Shown: piece after piece, positions 27,853 through 37,824 of the stretch
How positions within the stretch are numbered: position 1 is the first letter of the stretch
Layout of the letters: every line of letters begins with the position of its first letter
Origin: an uncultured Cytophagales bacterium
Lineage (GTDB): Bacteria; Bacteroidota; Bacteroidia; Cytophagales; UBA9547
Length of the DNA stretch: 38,123 bases
Assembly: GCA_945957555.1 (NCBI GenBank)
Contig: CAMFLX010000030.1
Location: 1-38,123 of the forward strand
Direction of reading: 5' to 3'
Position numbers and translations under genes: made by a program
The notes under the pieces: generated by a model
Told to the model about the DNA's origin: nothing
Databases searched by the model: none
Seen by the model: only the letters and a program-made list of their open reading frames with translations

Positions 27853-29493
27853 TTAGTATATAACACTAAGGTGAATATAATCGGCTCCGTTATTTATCTT
27901 TACTAGATAATAGCCTTGTGGAAGGATCCCTTCACCATTGGTTCCGTCCCATTCAGTCGGAATGTTCAATGTTTTTACAGTTTTACCGTTCTTGTCGAAT
28001 ATCGTAGCAGTTCCTTTCTGTGAAAGATAAAGCGTGTCGTCTTTACCATCGTTATTGGGTGTGAGCACTACTTCGTCACATATTTCGCTGCTTATGGTAA
28101 TTTTCTTTTCTAAAAAATCAGAGCATTGCGTATTGCGAGGTTTAATAACCAAACTGTAATTTCCCTGCTTAAGCCCAGTAAAGAGTGTTTTCGAAGTTCC
28201 AGCAATAAAAACCTTTTGGCTATCGTATAGTTCTACTTTGATGGAGTCCAAGAGATTATTCATGAAAGTCAGGTCGATACTTGCAAGCTCAGTACAATAG
28301 GCCTTAGTGGCTTTTATGGTTGGGTAAGCTAATGTCGGACATTTACCATTAGTCACTATATTTTTAATCCTAAGATTAGTGGTATCTGAAATTAAAGTAA
28401 GACTTGGCAAAGCGAGATATGTGATTTTACAATAATAATTACCACTGTCACTAGAGAGGACGCTAGGGATTTGATAATTTTTTGTGGTCGATTTTATGAG
28501 AAATGTACCTTTATGATACCATGAAAATACCAAACCTGTGAGCGTATCTGTATTGTTGGGCTTAATAGTTACTGCATCATTTACAGAGGCATTAATAATG
28601 CTTAATTTAGAAGTATTTCTTTGTGGACTATAGTCGTATGAGATAGCGCTGTAATTGCTATGGCTAAGGTAGCCTACAAGATCATCAAATGTCAAGAGGT
28701 TGTTTTGAATTTGAATTTTAGTGAGGGCTTTGAGATTGGATAGGTCTGGGGTACTGGTGAGTAAATTGCTGTCAGCCACAAACTCTGATAACAATGTATT
28801 GGCCGACAAGTCTTGGACACTTGCAAGCAAGTTTCTACTGATGTTGAGTCTTTTTAGATTTGACAAATTACTAAGAGAAGGAAGACTTGTGAGTTTATTT
28901 CCAGCGCAGTATAAGCGCTCAAGAGAGACTAAGCCAGATAAACTTGGCAGAGATGTCAAGTTGTTATAGGAGACATCAAGTATATTTACTTTATTGAGCG
29001 TGCTGAGACTTGGCAACGTCTGAATTTGATTGTAAGAAACTTGGATACTCAACAGCTTGAGATTGGCACTTAAGGTTGGCAATGTAGTGAGGGCATTATT
29101 GTCCGCAAAAATATTCGTTAAATTTTTCAACGAATCTAGGGCAGGTAGCGTAGTGAGTTGATTATTTCTAACATTCAGCGTTTGTAGCTGCCCTAATCTT
29201 CCAATTTTAGGCAAGGCCGTCAGTAGATTACCTGTAAGGTTGATTCCCCTGATATTTATAAAGTATTGAATACCCTCAACATTTTTAATACTCAAGTTTT
29301 TCATGATCAAGCTGTCTGAATATGTGGCGGCTTGAGTCAGTATTAATTGATTTTTACTGTCTATACAACTTGCATAGTTAGCCTTGAGGTATTTTAGGAA
29401 CTCGGTATCTGGGATGGCAGCAGTTTGTGCAAAGCTTTGTCGCAGCACCATCACAGCAAATACCAATGCGATATGTTTGATTTGACTTAGCAT
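27853..29493 (-). CDS. Leucine-rich-repeat surface protein with Ig-like domain and T9SS type B sorting domain
   Basis: A 546-residue protein. Signal peptide ends VLRQSFAQ. Residues about 55-275 hold some ten LRR units of 20-22 residues (LTSLPSLSGLVSLERLYCAGNK style). An Ig-like domain follows at about 285-375 with the SDSGNYYC core. The C-terminal 75 residues start VVLTPNNDGKDDTLYL and contain YYLVKINNG, the CHU_C/gliding-motility type B sorting domain that is exported by T9SS with the help of PorP/SprF proteins. It is the third gene of the sigma/anti-sigma operon (start 1 nt after the anti-sigma stop), and a PorP/SprF gene lies next door. Likely role: surface adhesin or ligand sensor. Confidence 0.85.
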   Translation of the reverse strand: MLSQIKHIALVFAVMVLRQSFAQTAAIPDTEFLKYLKANYASCIDSKNQLILTQAATYSDSLIMKNLSIKNVEGIQYFINIRGINLTGNLLTALPKIGRLGQLQTLNVRNNQLTTLPALDSLKNLTNIFADNNALTTLPTLSANLKLLSIQVSYNQIQTLPSLSTLNKVNILDVSYNNLTSLPSLSGLVSLERLYCAGNKLTSLPSLSNLSNLKRLNISRNLLASVQDLSANTLLSEFVADSNLLTSTPDLSNLKALTKIQIQNNLLTFDDLVGYLSHSNYSAISYDYSPQRNTSKLSIINASVNDAVTIKPNNTDTLTGLVFSWYHKGTFLIKSTTKNYQIPSVLSSDSGNYYCKITYLALPSLTLISDTTNLRIKNIVTNGKCPTLAYPTIKATKAYCTELASIDLTFMNNLLDSIKVELYDSQKVFIAGTSKTLFTGLKQGNYSLVIKPRNTQCSDFLEKKITISSEICDEVVLTPNNDGKDDTLYLSQKGTATIFDKNGKTVKTLNIPTEWDGTNGEGILPQGYYLVKINNGADYIHLSVIY

Positions 29494-29494
29494 G

Positions 29495-30598
29495 TTATCT
29501 TACAATAGTTATAGTGCCTTTGGCGATCATGTTGTCGGAATATTCAATTACAAAATTATAAAATCCTTCACTCATTTCACCGTTTTTCGATTGGCCATTC
29601 CATGTTGCTGGCACATCTGATTGTACTGCATTGGTCGCATAAATATTGCCTTGCTTATCATATATCTTAAGTTGCCCATTAGCGTGATATGCAGGTATTT
29701 CCAGGTTATCGCCAGAAAATGGATTAAAGATATAGTCTTTGTCGCAAATTTTATGCTGAATGATAACACTTTGCTTGCCAATACAACCATTTGCGTCAGT
29801 AAGTATAACTTCGTATCTGCCTGTACCAAGATTTTGTGCAGCTACTGAACGTTTGTTTTCATCGAGCACCTGAATGTTGTATGGTGCGATACCCCCTTTG
29901 CCTTCAGAAAGCCACAACCTGCCGTTTTGGTCACCATAACATGGAGACGCTTGTCCAAGTGAGGCATGCAGCTGTATACCAGCACATTTGTCCAATTGCG
30001 GTTTGGATACTATGGGTTCAGGGGCGTTTTTGGGGTTTACAACTACAGGCTCATGTTGAGCTTCTGTTGGGTGTTCCAAGGGTTTATTATTTTGAGGAGC
30101 TATCGTTTTTCTCTCAACGACTTGTGGTGTGGGTTCCGAAACAACACTATTTTGTATAGGCTTGCTACTGCTTGCTATTTTTTTAGAAGTATTCCCTTCA
30201 ACTTTAGTGGGGTTCTGTGCGATGATGGGTAAGTCTTTGGGCTTGCCTTCGGCCTTTTCGTTAACGACAATTGTAGGTGTAGATGATTTTGGCTCCGATG
30301 GACTGTTAAACATGTAGAGTAGGGCTCCGATGCTTGAGGCCGTAAGTACTGTTGCAATACCATACTTTATGCCCTTAGAGGGGCCACTTTGCGATTTATG
30401 GTGGCTTAATAGTGCTTCATTTACAGAGAGTAATCTGTTTTCAATCACCATATCATTAGCCAGCTCATGCACACGAACCTTTTGCGAAAGTTCTGGGCTT
30501 TCTTGAAGCGTTTTTTCGAATGCCTCCTTTTGAGAAGCATCAAGACCCTTGTTTAGGTAGTCTTCAATTTGTTCGAATATGTGATCTTCTGGTTTCAT
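29495..30598 (-). CDS. Anti-sigma-factor-like membrane protein with SprB-like repeat and T9SS type B-like C-terminus
   Basis: A 367-residue protein without signal peptide. Residues 1-90 are acidic and helical (IEDYLNKGLDASQKEAFEKTL), like the cytoplasmic domain of non-zinc anti-sigma factors. A single membrane helix lies at about 95-115 (YGIATVLTASSIGALLYMF). A Pro/Lys/Thr-rich periplasmic linker runs to about 205. Residues 206-285 resemble a SprB repeat (CYGDQNGRLWLSEGKGGIAPYNIQV, then YEVILTDANGC). The last 80 residues (YIFNPFSGDNLEIP to GTITIVR) look like a T9SS type B C-terminal domain. Its ATG overlaps the sigma stop (ATGA). An inner-membrane protein with a surface-export-type tail is odd; it might bind the export machinery as a sensor. 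Confidence 0.75.
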   Translation of the reverse strand: MKPEDHIFEQIEDYLNKGLDASQKEAFEKTLQESPELSQKVRVHELANDMVIENRLLSVNEALLSHHKSQSGPSKGIKYGIATVLTASSIGALLYMFNSPSEPKSSTPTIVVNEKAEGKPKDLPIIAQNPTKVEGNTSKKIASSSKPIQNSVVSEPTPQVVERKTIAPQNNKPLEHPTEAQHEPVVVNPKNAPEPIVSKPQLDKCAGIQLHASLGQASPCYGDQNGRLWLSEGKGGIAPYNIQVLDENKRSVAAQNLGTGRYEVILTDANGCIGKQSVIIQHKICDKDYIFNPFSGDNLEIPAYHANGQLKIYDKQGNIYATNAVQSDVPATWNGQSKNGEMSEGFYNFVIEYSDNMIAKGTITIVR

Positions 30599-31179
30599 TT
30601 TGATTTCAGTTTTTCTAAAAGTGCAGGGTTCTCTTCTATGAGCTGCACGAGTTTCTTTTTACAACGCATTACCTGCATTTTGCAGGAATCTACCGAGGCC
30701 ATTCCCATTCTTAGGACAATGTCTTCCATGAGAATATTTTGATAGATGGTGTACGTCAGTAGTTCAATACATTTCTCCCCAATAGAGGTAAACAAGGTTC
30801 TGAGAACGTTTTCGTCACTTGTCTTTACAAAGGCGATTCTTTCGGGATTTTGGCTATCATCAGATAGATCCATCTCGTTAAATTCGGATTCAAAAACGAC
30901 ACGTTTGTCTTTTTTGAGTTTGTTTAACCAAAAATTGATGCTCAAGCGATACAAGTAGCCATAAACCTTGTATTTGGGATCGAAAGATCCTTTTACCACT
31001 TGTTTGTAAAAACTCAATAGTGCATCTTGGAAGGCATCGAAGGCATCGTCTTTACTGCCTTGATTCCTGACGATGAACTTTTGAACAATTGGTAAAACCT
31101 TGTCGTACAATACGGGTATTACTTGTTTGTCTTTACCGAGCCGAATTAATTCGGGTATTTGACTTTCTTCAATTTTCAT
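30595..31179 (-). CDS. ECF-type RNA polymerase sigma factor
   Basis: The ATG at 31179 gives 194 residues (a TTG lies one codon upstream). Sigma region 2 spans about 15-95 (AFDAFQDALLSFYKQV, then YGYLYRLSINFWLNKLKKDKR) and region 4 about 125-175 (CIELLTYTIYQNILMEDIVLRMGMASVDSCKMQVMRCKKKL). It is a small group 4 factor directing RNA polymerase to a special promoter set. Its stop overlaps the anti-sigma start, the standard coupling for a sigma and its inhibitor. AACGTT repeats at 31196-31220, in the control region, may be its own promoter or a regulator site. It is divergent from the PorP/SprF gene, which may be a target. Confidence 0.9.
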   Translation of the reverse strand: MKIEESQIPELIRLGKDKQVIPVLYDKVLPIVQKFIVRNQGSKDDAFDAFQDALLSFYKQVVKGSFDPKYKVYGYLYRLSINFWLNKLKKDKRVVFESEFNEMDLSDDSQNPERIAFVKTSDENVLRTLFTSIGEKCIELLTYTIYQNILMEDIVLRMGMASVDSCKMQVMRCKKKLVQLIEENPALLEKLKSK

Positions 31180-31195
31180 CAATTTTCACAAAAAC

Positions 31196-31220
31196 AACGT
31201 TAAAGCTTTTAGGTAACGTT
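31196..31220. promoter_or_regulatory. Paired AACGTT motifs between the sigma and PorP/SprF genes
   Basis: Two AACGTT hexamers (31196-31201 and 31215-31220) lie 19 bp apart, about 20 bp upstream of the sigma start and 64 bp upstream of the PorP/SprF start. Each is a palindrome, so the pair reads the same on both strands. They could be an ECF-type promoter or a regulator's site. No other copy was found by eye in the window. Confidence 0.3.
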
Positions 31221-31283
31221 TTCATTAATAAAAAAAGTAAAAACTTTTAAAAATAGATAAGATTATTGCAAATTTGGAGTCAA

Positions 31284-32168
31284 ATGACTGGTACTTTGAA
31301 AGTAAAATTACTTCTACTGCCTTTGCTGTTGGTGTGTCTTTTGGCTCATTCTCAGCAGTCTACCTATTCTTATCCGGACTTTTTTTATGCTACGTACCCT
31401 TTCATGATTAACTACGACAACCCAGCTTATATAGTTGAAGATACAAGATACAATTTGTATTCACAATATAAACAAAGGCTTGGCCAGTTTAGAAAAATAG
31501 TCTCATATTCGGTTCAGGCAGAGAAGGTATGGCGAAGGGAACAGAAGAATACTAATAGTCTAAGAGTTATATTTAATAACGAAAACGAAGGGCCTTACAT
31601 TACTAGGCCTAGATTTTATGCGGGTTACGCAAACGAAATCTCTGTGAACGAAAATGTGAAAATCGGTTTGGGGTTTACCTTGGGAGCTACTGCGATTAAT
31701 TTTTCTGCACCAAACCAAGGAGCTTCTGGTAACAGTTATCTTCCTGACGGAAAGCTTGGATTTGTGCTCAAAGGCAAAAAACTGGAATCGGGAGTATCTT
31801 CGCTTCAAGTCTTTAACGCGAAATCGAGGGTAGTAGGTGCAAATATTGCATTGAAACGTTACTATAACTTTTTTCTTAAGTATAAAACCGACTTGTCCCT
31901 GAACTGGGTAATAGAGGGACTGGTATTGGCAGACCTCAGAGGCTCTAAAATTATTCCCCTTGCAGCTGTGATGGCACATTATGACCAGAGATTTTCAATA
32001 GGATTTAGTAATCGGTTTGGATATGCTTTTTCTGTATTTGGGAAGATCAAAATGTTTCAAGATCAAATACCATTAGACCTGATATTTATGTACAATTCTC
32101 CAATTTTTTCAAATACTACCAAAGAATTGAATTCTGTAGAAATAGCTTTATCTCTGGGAATCAAGTAA
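31284..32168 (+). CDS. PorP/SprF family type IX secretion system membrane protein
   Basis: From the ATG at 31284 (GGAG seven bases upstream) the product has 294 residues; a TTG at 31266 is less likely. Signal peptide ends LLAHSQQ. The mature start YPDFFYATYPFMINYDNPAY is the PorP/SprF entry pattern, in which a tyrosine/phenylalanine-rich segment is followed by N-PAY. The rest is a transmembrane barrel (PRFYAGYANEISVNENVKIGLGFTLG, then LSVNFV-type strands) ending EIALSLGIK. PorP/SprF proteins anchor type B-CTD substrates at the outer membrane during T9SS export. Its neighbour across the promoter is an operon encoding such a substrate, so the pair may be dedicated partners. Confidence 0.85.
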   Translation: MTGTLKVKLLLLPLLLVCLLAHSQQSTYSYPDFFYATYPFMINYDNPAYIVEDTRYNLYSQYKQRLGQFRKIVSYSVQAEKVWRREQKNTNSLRVIFNNENEGPYITRPRFYAGYANEISVNENVKIGLGFTLGATAINFSAPNQGASGNSYLPDGKLGFVLKGKKLESGVSSLQVFNAKSRVVGANIALKRYYNFFLKYKTDLSLNWVIEGLVLADLRGSKIIPLAAVMAHYDQRFSIGFSNRFGYAFSVFGKIKMFQDQIPLDLIFMYNSPIFSNTTKELNSVEIALSLGIK

Positions 32169-32212: not shown

Positions 32213-32245
32213 TTTGAATTTTTTATAGTAGCCACGTTACCTTTT
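32213..32245 (+). promoter_or_regulatory. Predicted promoter of the pectate lyase gene
   Basis: TTTG (32213-32216) and TACCTTTT (32238-32245) are 21 bp apart, one mismatch from the TTTG-N19-21-TAnnTTTG consensus. Transcription would start near 32252, 30 nt before the ATG at 32282. Confidence 0.4.
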
Positions 32246-32281
32246 ATTTTGGACTTTGTTTTAGGTAAAAATTACGTTCTT

Positions 32282-34486
32282 ATGATAAAGAATTTACTGA
32301 AAATAAAGACTACTGTTGTGGCATTGCTATTAGGGATTAGTACCGCTCATGCACAAACATATTGTTTTAACTCACCCCAAGGTTATGGCGCAGGTACTAC
32401 TGGTGGAGGTAATGCAACACCTGTTACTGTAACTACACAATCAGCACTACAATCGGCATTGACAGCTTCAGGGAGTGGCGTGATTTTGGTATCAGGTACT
32501 ATTTCCTGTTCATACATGAGTTTATTAGTTACCAATAAAACACTTCTTGGGTTGCCTGGTGCGAGATTAAGAAACTTGGATCAAACAGCTGCAGGTTCTG
32601 GTATCTTAAATCTTAAAGATGGGACTAATAATTTCATTATAAGGAATCTTATATTTGAAGGCCCAGGAGCTTATGATGTGGATGGAAGGGATAACCTTAC
32701 CAACTCTGGTGGTACAAAAATATGGGTAGACCATTGTGAATTTCAAGATGGTATGGATGGTAACTTTGATCACAAGAATACTGCAGACAATATTACTGTT
32801 TCTTGGTGTAAATTCACCTATTTGAAAGCACCTAAGGCGGGAGGGTCTGGTGGTACAGATGATCACCGTTTTACAAACTTGGTCGGTTCTAGCGATAGCG
32901 ATAAGCCATCTGATGGACAATATAGTATCACTTGGCAATATTGCTGGTGGGCTGCTGGTTGTGTGGAAAGGATGACACGGGCTAGAAACGCTCAATTGCA
33001 CATGTTGAATTGTTATTGGAACTCTTCAGTGGCTAAAGTTGCCTTAGGTTTGGGCGGTGTTACTGATTGTTATGTTGAAAATTCAACTTTTGCCAATACT
33101 GGTGACAAGTACAGGTATTATGACAACGGAACAGTTAGACTAACTACAACTGGTTGTACTGCTCCTCCAGCTAATGTGGGAAACTGTCCAGCTCCAAGTT
33201 ATACGCATGAGGCAATTTCTGCTAGCACAGCGCTCACAGCGATTACTGGTTCTTGTGGAGCCGGTGCTACTTTAAATGTTACTTCAAGTGGTGCAGTTTC
33301 GGCAAATTCTTCTTGTAATTCTAACCCTACTTGCACTGCAACAGTTACAGCTTCTGGAAGTACTTCGTTTTGCCAAGGCGGTAGTGTGGTATTAACAGCG
33401 AGTGCAGGCTCTTCTTATGTTTGGAAAAACAACGGCACTCAAGTAGGCACCTCACAAACTTATACTGCTACGGCGGCGGGTTCATATACAGTTGACGTTA
33501 CTTGTACTAACGGAGCTAAAGCAACTTCTACAGCTACTACAGTTACCATTACTACTGCAGCTACATGGTATGCTGATACTGATGGTGATGGAACTGGTGA
33601 TGCAAGTTCTACTAAGAGCTCATGTACGCAACCTACAGGTTATGTAGCCAAAAGCGGCGACCAATGCCCTAATGATGCCAACAAGATTGCTCCTGGCGAT
33701 TGTGGATGCGGCAAAGTAGAAGGCTCTTGTACCGACTGTGCGGGTGTGGCAAATGGTACTGCTGTACTGGATAATTGCACAAGATGTGTAGGTGGCAATA
33801 CCGGCAAACAACCATGTTCGGCCAGTGTGCAAGCAGAAGAAGCTTGTGAGACATCCACAGGTTCGGTTGTAGAATCTGATCCAGCAAAATCTGGTTTTTT
33901 AGGTTCAGGATATGTAAATACACCAAATGCAACAGGCACTTACGCTATTTTTGGAATCACTGCAGCTAACGCAGGTAATGCTACTATCGGTTTTAGATAT
34001 GGAAATACGGGAACCATCAATAGAACAGCCGCATTGTCGGTGAACTCAGGTGCTACTGCTGCTAATTATACATTCGTTATTAATGCGGCAAGCGCTACCT
34101 ATTGGGTAGTAGAAGAGGCCTCAAATATCCCTTTAGTTGCAGGGAACAACCTCATCAAGCTTACAGCTACTAATGCCGAGGGTTTAGCCAATTTGGATTT
34201 CATGTACGTAGTAGGTACAGGTTACTCCGCAGGTGGCTGTGTGGTAACTGGTGTAGATGATCAGCAAATGACATTTAGCCTGTATCCAAATCCTTCAAAG
34301 GGTGAGTTTAACATCAACACTACTGAAAACAACAAAGTAAGGGTGTACGATATGGAAGGCCAATTGGTAGAGACCATTCAAGTAAATGGTTCAGCTAAGA
34401 TTGGGCAAACTTACGAAGCAGGGATCTATTTTCTAAAGATAGAGAATGGTGGCTCTGTCCATTCTTTGAAGATCGTAAAAGAATAA
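32282..34486 (+). CDS. Secreted pectate lyase (PL1 family) with carbohydrate-binding and T9SS type A domains
   Basis: From the ATG at 32282 (a TTG at 32249 is not preferred) the product has 734 residues. Signal peptide ends STAHAQ. A PL1 right-handed beta-helix spans about 30-310: KIWVDHCEFQDGMDGNFD (147-164) with metal-binding Asp residues, ITVSWCKF and RMTRARNAQLHMLN (230-243) with the catalytic arginine region. It cleaves polygalacturonate by beta-elimination, leaving unsaturated products for GH105. Then come an Ig-like domain (about 345-425), a Cys/Asp-rich TSP3-like calcium segment (YADTDGDGTGDAS, about 430-515), a CBM6/35-like module (about 520-650) and a T9SS type A tail (FSLYPNPSKGEFNI to SLKIVKE). 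Surface or secreted. Confidence 0.9.
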   Translation: MIKNLLKIKTTVVALLLGISTAHAQTYCFNSPQGYGAGTTGGGNATPVTVTTQSALQSALTASGSGVILVSGTISCSYMSLLVTNKTLLGLPGARLRNLDQTAAGSGILNLKDGTNNFIIRNLIFEGPGAYDVDGRDNLTNSGGTKIWVDHCEFQDGMDGNFDHKNTADNITVSWCKFTYLKAPKAGGSGGTDDHRFTNLVGSSDSDKPSDGQYSITWQYCWWAAGCVERMTRARNAQLHMLNCYWNSSVAKVALGLGGVTDCYVENSTFANTGDKYRYYDNGTVRLTTTGCTAPPANVGNCPAPSYTHEAISASTALTAITGSCGAGATLNVTSSGAVSANSSCNSNPTCTATVTASGSTSFCQGGSVVLTASAGSSYVWKNNGTQVGTSQTYTATAAGSYTVDVTCTNGAKATSTATTVTITTAATWYADTDGDGTGDASSTKSSCTQPTGYVAKSGDQCPNDANKIAPGDCGCGKVEGSCTDCAGVANGTAVLDNCTRCVGGNTGKQPCSASVQAEEACETSTGSVVESDPAKSGFLGSGYVNTPNATGTYAIFGITAANAGNATIGFRYGNTGTINRTAALSVNSGATAANYTFVINAASATYWVVEEASNIPLVAGNNLIKLTATNAEGLANLDFMYVVGTGYSAGGCVVTGVDDQQMTFSLYPNPSKGEFNINTTENNKVRVYDMEGQLVETIQVNGSAKIGQTYEAGIYFLKIENGGSVHSLKIVKE

Positions 34487-37377: not shown

Positions 37378-37425
37378 CATAGCATATGGTTCTAGGGCAT
37401 GCGAAAAGCTCATTTTACCCTGCGC

Positions 37426-37824
37426 CTCAGTCGTTCGGGCTAGCGTCTCAGTCATTCGGGCGCGCGTCTCAGTCATTCAGGCACGCGTCCCAGTCATTCA
37501 GGCGCGTGTCTCAGTCGCTCAGGCGCTCGTCCCAGTCGTTCGGGCGCGCGTCTCAGCCGTTCAGGCTAGCGTCTCAGTTGTTCGGACACGCGTCTCAGCC
37601 GTTCGGGCTAGCGTCTCAGCCATTCAGGCACGCGTCCCAGTCATTCAGGCGCGTGTCTCAGTCGCTCAGGCGCTCGTCCCAGTCGTTCGGGCGCGCGTCT
37701 CAGCCGTTCAGGCTAGCGTCTCAGTTGTTCGGACACGCGTCTCAGCCGTTCGGGCTAGCGTCTCAGCCATTCAGGCACGCGTCTCAGTCGTTCGGGCGCG
37801 CGCCTGAGTCATAGAGGCGCGAGT
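37426..37824. repeat. GC-rich 21-bp tandem repeat array with 147-bp higher-order period
   Basis: Nineteen contiguous 21-bp units (18 good, the last degenerate). Each begins CTCAG or CCCAG, has TTC(G/A)GGC-like sequence in the middle and ends with CGT or TGT. Units 4-10 and units 11-17 are the same in order and sequence, and unit 3 differs from unit 10 by one base, so a seven-unit block (147 bp) has been duplicated. Units are separated by no spacer, so it is not CRISPR. Two forward frames stay open only because 21 is divisible by 3 and the unit lacks stops in them; the products are monotonous seven-residue repeats, so coding is doubtful. The GC content is far above that of the surroundings. 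Function unknown. Confidence 0.9.

Follow-up and report, generated by a model that had tools for sequence, protein, structure and literature searches.

Why should the genes for an extracytoplasmic function (ECF) sigma factor and its membrane-bound anti-sigma factor stand beside those for a surface protein and an outer-membrane carrier of the type IX secretion system (T9SS), and what would such a pair sense? The locus that raises this question lies at positions 27,853 to 32,168 of a 38,123-nucleotide contig (CAMFLX010000030.1 of assembly GCA_945957555.1, contig C30 of a 6.25-Mb draft genome; hereafter the window) from an uncultured Cytophagales bacterium. We propose, with a probability of roughly one half, that it is one copy of a multi-copy surface-signalling cassette found in soil members of this order, in which the anti-sigma factor docks by a decoy cargo tail on the PorP/SprF carrier that holds a leucine-rich repeat (LRR) sensor protein.

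Gene content of the locus

Three of the four genes are on the minus strand and closely packed. The first (30595..31179, starting at ATG 31179, with TTG 31182 also possible) encodes the sigma factor, which matched Sigma70_r2 (2.6e-6) and TIGR02937 (1.5e-9) in a family scan and aligns with 12 paralogues over regions 2 and 4. Its stop shares the bases ATGA (30595-30598) with the start of the gene for the 367-residue anti-sigma factor (29495..30598), a product assigned on gene order, this overlap, a CHU_C match at the cut-off and an AlphaFold model. A protein with regions 2 and 4, followed by an overlapping gene for a membrane protein with a helical cytoplasmic domain, is by sequence an ECF sigma/anti-sigma pair, in which the cytoplasmic domain is predicted to bind the sigma factor. 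One base separates the end of the anti-sigma stop (29495) from the ATG of the LRR protein gene (27853..29493), which begins at 29493. On the plus strand, a gene for a 294-residue PorP/SprF-like outer-membrane carrier (31284..32168) is divergent from the sigma gene, the likely ATG codons of the two (31284 and 31179) being 104 bp apart; the listed carrier start, TTG 31266, lies ahead of the signal peptide, and ATG 31284 is the likelier one. These coordinates and the family scans bear out the four-gene arrangement described in the initial annotation, as well as the type B T9SS tail that it had assigned to the LRR protein (CHU_C, 4.5e-6, 27.1 bits against a cut-off of 27).

The 546-residue LRR protein (LRR_4, 2.8e-20) has the makings of type B T9SS cargo, with a signal-like N-terminus, the CHU_C match and a TPNNDG motif in its C-terminal domain (CTD). 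LRRs were found in 17 of the 20 counterparts tested from other copies of the locus, and by hydropathy a signal peptide is present in 51/52 such surface proteins. Type B CTDs bind dedicated PorP-like carriers (PMC9143113, PMC12618676), and SprA is encoded in the same genome. The carrier itself matched PF11751 (PorP_SprF) at 5.6e-18 and scored 58 bits against TIGR03519 (cut-off 90.55), and is hence a divergent member, modelled as a FadL-type barrel like that of the T9SS protein PorV. It has no Cys-x-Cys (C-x-C) tail, a feature absent from all 65 carriers of such loci in which it was sought (0/65). As this tail ties SprF to the gliding track (PMC12635249), the carriers of these loci are probably static.

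The anti-sigma factor and its cargo-like C-terminus

The anti-sigma factor has an architecture of five parts, namely a helical cytoplasmic domain (residues 1-70), a transmembrane (TM) helix (about 79-98), a disordered tether (about 99-204), an immunoglobulin (Ig)/SprB-like domain with conserved cysteines (205-285) and a type-B-like T9SS CTD (285-367). The AlphaFold model agrees, with helices to residue 70, a TM helix at 82-98, disorder to about residue 200 and two confidently folded Ig-like beta domains at the C-terminus. The last of these is a feature that the initial annotation missed. CHU_C (PF13585) matched residues 297-363 at 27.0 bits, exactly the cut-off of 27.0, and matched 7 of 14 homologues at E<0.01; TIGR04131 gave 23.2 bits, below its cut-off of 35. 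In structural comparisons the CTDs of PorU and PorZ aligned with residues 284-367 at Z 8.7 (2.1 A) and Z 8.3, respectively, and that of a T9SS substrate aligned with the domain at Z 7.7. A Foldseek search with the whole anti-sigma model returned mainly generic Ig-like matches and was not used.

We compared this architecture over 74 distinct loci that pair the sigma factor with a CTD-bearing anti-sigma factor, nearly all from Cytophagales (an order-wide survey together with two loci from other parts of the class). The Ig/SprB-like domain has its conserved cysteines in 68/74 anti-sigma factors. The tether, rich in Pro, Glu, Lys, Ser and Thr and of low complexity, has little sequence conservation and a constrained length (median 105 residues, range 85-137). 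The CTD differs from those of the surface proteins in one conspicuous way: TPNxDG, which we equate by position with motif A of PMC12618676, is kept in 1/74 anti-sigma factors versus 39/52 surface proteins of the same cassettes, and is commonly replaced by a stretch resembling FNPxxGExWEIP. In Flavobacterium johnsoniae all five conserved CTD motifs are needed for secretion (PMC12618676), motif A being required by the SprB CTD, and we therefore suggest that the anti-sigma tail may be a cargo signal that is recognisable but non-exportable.

A signal-like N-terminus was found by hydropathy in 0/74 anti-sigma factors, which with the loss of motif A (1/74) sets them apart from exported type B cargo; the single TM helix has its positive flank on the cytoplasmic side. 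These features bear on a reading in which the tail passes through the T9SS, placing the Ig-like domain and CTD at the cell surface, where they sense the outside directly while the TM helix stays in the inner membrane. About 105 disordered residues are long enough to span the envelope, a CTD has been retained, and there is precedent in Dma for anti-sigma factors that cross both membranes (PMC13088901). However, a protein with no signal peptide is a poor candidate for this route, and its membrane-anchored chain would have to remain threaded in SprA or exit laterally; we regard such an exposed sensor as very unlikely.

The same N-terminal anti-sigma-like domain also occurs in long proteins (643-766 residues) with large periplasmic parts of unknown type (L201 5041-7245, L210 7744-9987, L222 781-2712 and L223 2376-4676), which suggests another sensor class on the same chassis.

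Recurrence of the cassette

Searches with the anti-sigma and sigma factors identified about 12 diverged copies of the cassette in the same genome, with 19-31% (anti-sigma) and 26-52% (sigma) identity to the window copy. Nearly all keep the same order, with PorP divergent from the sigma gene and the anti-sigma and surface protein genes following, and among the 33 PorP/SprF matches of this genome the majority of the divergent, low-scoring ones are those of the cassettes. A scan of named genomes found 13 loci, and all 13 keep the set in the same order; these genomes include Cytophaga aurantiaca DSM 3654, Sporocytophaga and Cytophagales metagenome-assembled genomes, and a single-contig genome (4,433,218 bases) of the genus of Cytophaga aurantiaca has five cassettes. 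Among the 74 loci, PorP lies within 600 bp in 68, divergently in 64 of those, and three of the other six have a PorP gene 0.8-3 kb away. Recurrence on this scale goes well beyond what chance would give. CTD surface genes, where present after the anti-sigma gene, start at most 12 nt from it in 51 of 52 cases. A class-wide survey with the anti-sigma profile gave 3/396, a lower bound, as five candidates were scored per genome, and not a phylum-wide frequency. The initial annotation had named lack of conservation in relatives as evidence against its proposal; as the neighbourhood survey found the set conserved, that objection falls away.

The recurrence could reflect plain linkage, with PorP serving only to export and anchor the LRR protein while the Ig-like end of the anti-sigma factor binds some other periplasmic target, such as peptidoglycan, an oligosaccharide or the LRR protein before its export. 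Type B cargo genes commonly adjoin a porP/sprF gene (PMC12618676), and Ig-like folds are generic. Yet PorP goes with anti-sigma factors that bear the CTD (68/74) and not with related ones, paired with the same sigma family, that lack it (0/30 have PorP within 600 bp; Fisher's test on nearly final counts gives p about 1e-20, a value that overstates independence, the loci being paralogous). PorP also stays next to the sigma gene at some loci whose anti-sigma gene has no CTD surface gene after it. We therefore think plain linkage quite unlikely, and favour docking of the anti-sigma factor on the carrier.

Several variants of the cassette were seen in these surveys. The CTD-less sigma/anti-sigma pair is conserved in several Cytophagales (loci L113, L117, L120 and others) and is possibly the ancestral form; some of these pairs adjoin genes that, judged by their sequence, are probably ftsX-like, uppP-like and truB-like. 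On contig C56 (L055, 2941-5637) a cassette-type PorP is divergent from a 541-residue type B surface protein, which resembles its counterpart in cassette C54, with no sigma or anti-sigma gene; this may be an orphan sensor pair. In cassette C104 (L045, 1670-2544) PorP is split into two open reading frames (ORFs) by a stop or frameshift, through either decay or assembly error.

Putative promoters and likely regulon

The 64 divergent intergenic regions allowed both strands to be searched for promoters. On the sigma strand, [G/A]T[T/A]AC[C/T]-N16-GT was present in 27/64 regions versus 0.88 expected, with a sharp peak at a spacing of 16 nt. On the PorP strand the same type of motif was at chance level (2/64 versus 0.98 expected); there, a housekeeping-type TAnnTTTG element was in modest excess, occurring 19 times versus 10.3 expected (shuffle maximum 18), and 9 times versus 2.6 expected (shuffle maximum 7) with TTG or TTT at -33. 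With the motif on the one strand and at chance level on the other, the sigma factor most likely drives its own operon, including the surface protein, and not PorP, which is probably made independently by the housekeeping sigma factor. The initial annotation had the sigma factor drive both the surface protein and its export partner: the first half of that claim is probably right, whereas promoter evidence does not support sigma control of PorP, for which an unrecognised promoter is conceivable.

In the window the putative sigma-dependent promoter of the operon reads GTTACC-N16-GTTTT (31191..31217, minus strand), and the same pattern occurs once more, on the plus strand (32236..32262), 19 bases ahead of the ATG of a pectate lyase gene next to PorP; none of 100 shuffles of the window had two matches. 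The product of this gene (32282..34486, plus strand; Pectate_lyase_4, 2.6e-10) has a type A T9SS tail (Por_Secre_tail, 3.5e-11) and is a likely member of the regulon. Genome-wide there are seven matches to the pattern, of which three are inside genes. One more precedes another pectate lyase gene, on contig C16, and one sits, together with a Pel9A-like gene, in a cluster on contig C42, where the pattern (L234, around 1501-1708) lies upstream of the gene for a secreted protein that fits no known Pfam family, among genes for pectin degradation. The general motif was present upstream of 11/206 genes flanking cassettes versus 1/146 around CTD-less sigma genes (p 0.017), and the motif-bearing genes include rhamnogalacturonan (RG) lyases and pectate lyases. 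Flanking genes at other loci encode glycoside hydrolases (GH9, GH43, GH26 and GH5), RG lyase family 11 and alginate lyase. The likely regulon, judged by such motifs and neighbours, would thus comprise the sensor operon and secreted polysaccharide-degrading enzymes.

This regulon bears on the closed loop first proposed for the locus, in which the anti-sigma factor reports on the state of the surface protein and its export partner. In a scheme close to it the CTDs of the anti-sigma factor and the surface protein would compete for free carrier, and the sigma factor would follow the empty or loaded state of the carrier, with no external ligand; the loop would keep sensor and carrier in balance. 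That both proteins have type-B-like CTDs beside a dedicated carrier gene fits it well, and in Porphyromonas gingivalis the control of the T9SS by PorXY-SigP already receives input from a CTD protein, PorA (PMC7712824). However, the PorP strand has no sigma-type promoter, the likely targets and neighbours are polysaccharide-degrading enzymes and not T9SS parts, and a dozen copies per genome suit many ligands better than one export check. Because the likely targets degrade polysaccharides, sensing of polysaccharides is the likelier function, and we consider a report on export rather unlikely.

A proposed model for signalling through the carrier

Starting from the observed gene set, protein architecture, motif loss and sigma-side promoter, we infer docking, a ligand and a release step as follows. 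The surface protein would be exported by the T9SS and kept by its CTD on the outer face of its own PorP/SprF carrier, as SprB is on SprF. The anti-sigma factor would cross the periplasm on its length-constrained tether, and its altered, probably non-exported CTD would dock either on this carrier or on its complex with the cargo. When the surface protein binds a polysaccharide, the contact made by the docked CTD could change, upon which the anti-sigma factor would free the sigma factor, perhaps by proteolysis. The freed sigma factor would transcribe its own operon, giving more sensor, and genes for secreted polysaccharide-degrading enzymes, here pectate lyases, with PorP outside its control. 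Given the type-B-like CTD of the anti-sigma factor, physical contact is more plausible than the initial annotation could know.

Several points weigh against this model. The CHU_C match of the anti-sigma factor is at threshold only, and generic Ig-like folds of unrelated proteins match its CTD at similar Z. The surveyed loci, being paralogues drawn from a limited number of genomes, are not independent. Contact between the anti-sigma factor and PorP is putative; mirror-tree coevolution was rejected as proof of it, since the partial r of 0.44 between PorP and the anti-sigma CTD was equalled by that of sigma factor and PorP (0.46), a pair for which no contact is expected. Descriptions of type B CTDs in contact with their carriers place this contact at the cell surface, once export is complete, and we know of no precedent for an unexported CTD that docks from the periplasm. 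Lastly, the genome-wide pattern is not enriched (7 matches versus 17 for the reversed control) and includes chance matches, so that the regulon rests on position and function.

With these points in mind we advance, tentatively and at somewhat less than even odds, the wider idea that a T9SS PorP/SprF carrier acts as a signal transducer: an anti-sigma factor with a decoy cargo signal on a tether of fixed length would sense from inside whether, and how, surface-held cargo engages polysaccharide, giving Cytophagales a SusCD-independent control of secreted enzymes that degrade plant polysaccharides. The SusC/SusD homologues of Cytophaga hutchinsonii are dispensable for cellulose use (PMC12016534). 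Little is understood of how insoluble plant polysaccharides are sensed by Cytophaga-type bacteria, and the cassette is a concrete, multi-copy candidate. If the idea is right, it gives T9SS carriers, whose known roles are in export, anchoring and gliding, a further one in signalling, and implies that a secretion signal can become a regulatory docking domain.

Comparison with known systems

Of the known systems Dma (PMC13088901) is the closest; the cassette resembles a Dma system whose barrel has been detached, with a T9SS carrier in its place. Both are from Bacteroidota and pair an ECF sigma factor with an anti-sigma factor in which an N-terminal anti-sigma domain is followed by a single TM helix and a long disordered tether through the periplasm towards the outer membrane; however, the Dma chain itself carries the outer-membrane beta-barrel, whereas that of the cassette ends in the Ig-like domain and type-B-like CTD, the barrel is a separate PorP/SprF protein, and a surface LRR protein and secreted-enzyme targets are added. 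FecI-FecR-FecA and SusC-type TonB-dependent signalling likewise tie a sigma/anti-sigma pair to an outer-membrane barrel, in multiple copies and with nutrient-acquisition targets, but the cassette has no TonB-dependent transducer or FecR domain (the family scan found no match to FecR or TonB-receptor families in the anti-sigma factor, PorP or surface protein), and its barrel, a T9SS carrier, belongs to the FadL/PorP family. The SigI/RsgI systems of Clostridium thermocellum (PMC10766802) likewise have numerous sigma/anti-sigma paralogues whose sensors face the exterior, every pair being tied to secreted polysaccharide-degrading enzymes; in that Gram-positive bacterium with a single membrane the carbohydrate-binding module is on the anti-sigma factor itself, whereas the cassette has an outer membrane to bridge and a separate protein as sensor, and Pfam searches found no RsgI N-terminal domain in the anti-sigma factor or its homologues.

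Two T9SS systems are also similar in part. In PorA-PorXY-SigP of P. gingivalis (PMC7712824) a CTD-bearing surface protein feeds ECF sigma control, but by way of a two-component system acting on T9SS genes, with the PorA CTD bound by PorV and no CTD-bearing anti-sigma factor. SprB-SprF and other type B cargo/carrier pairs (PMC9143113, PMC12618676, PMC12635249) share the type B CTD surface protein beside a dedicated PorP/SprF, to which the cassette adds a sigma/anti-sigma pair with a second, altered CTD, its carrier lacking the C-x-C tail (0/65). By the features tested the cassette works like the FecIRA, Dma and RsgI systems and is a member of none. A search of openly licensed PubMed Central papers, preprints excluded, found no description of this gene set or its wiring, in agreement with the initial annotation, to which no characterised system with just this set was known, and the cassette is likely, if not certain, to be novel.

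Other features of the window

At 37422-37821 a small ORF contains a 21-base tandem repeat with a higher-order period of 147; the genome has comparable ORFs of low-complexity repeats at other places (L048 9165-9680 and L231 961-1224).

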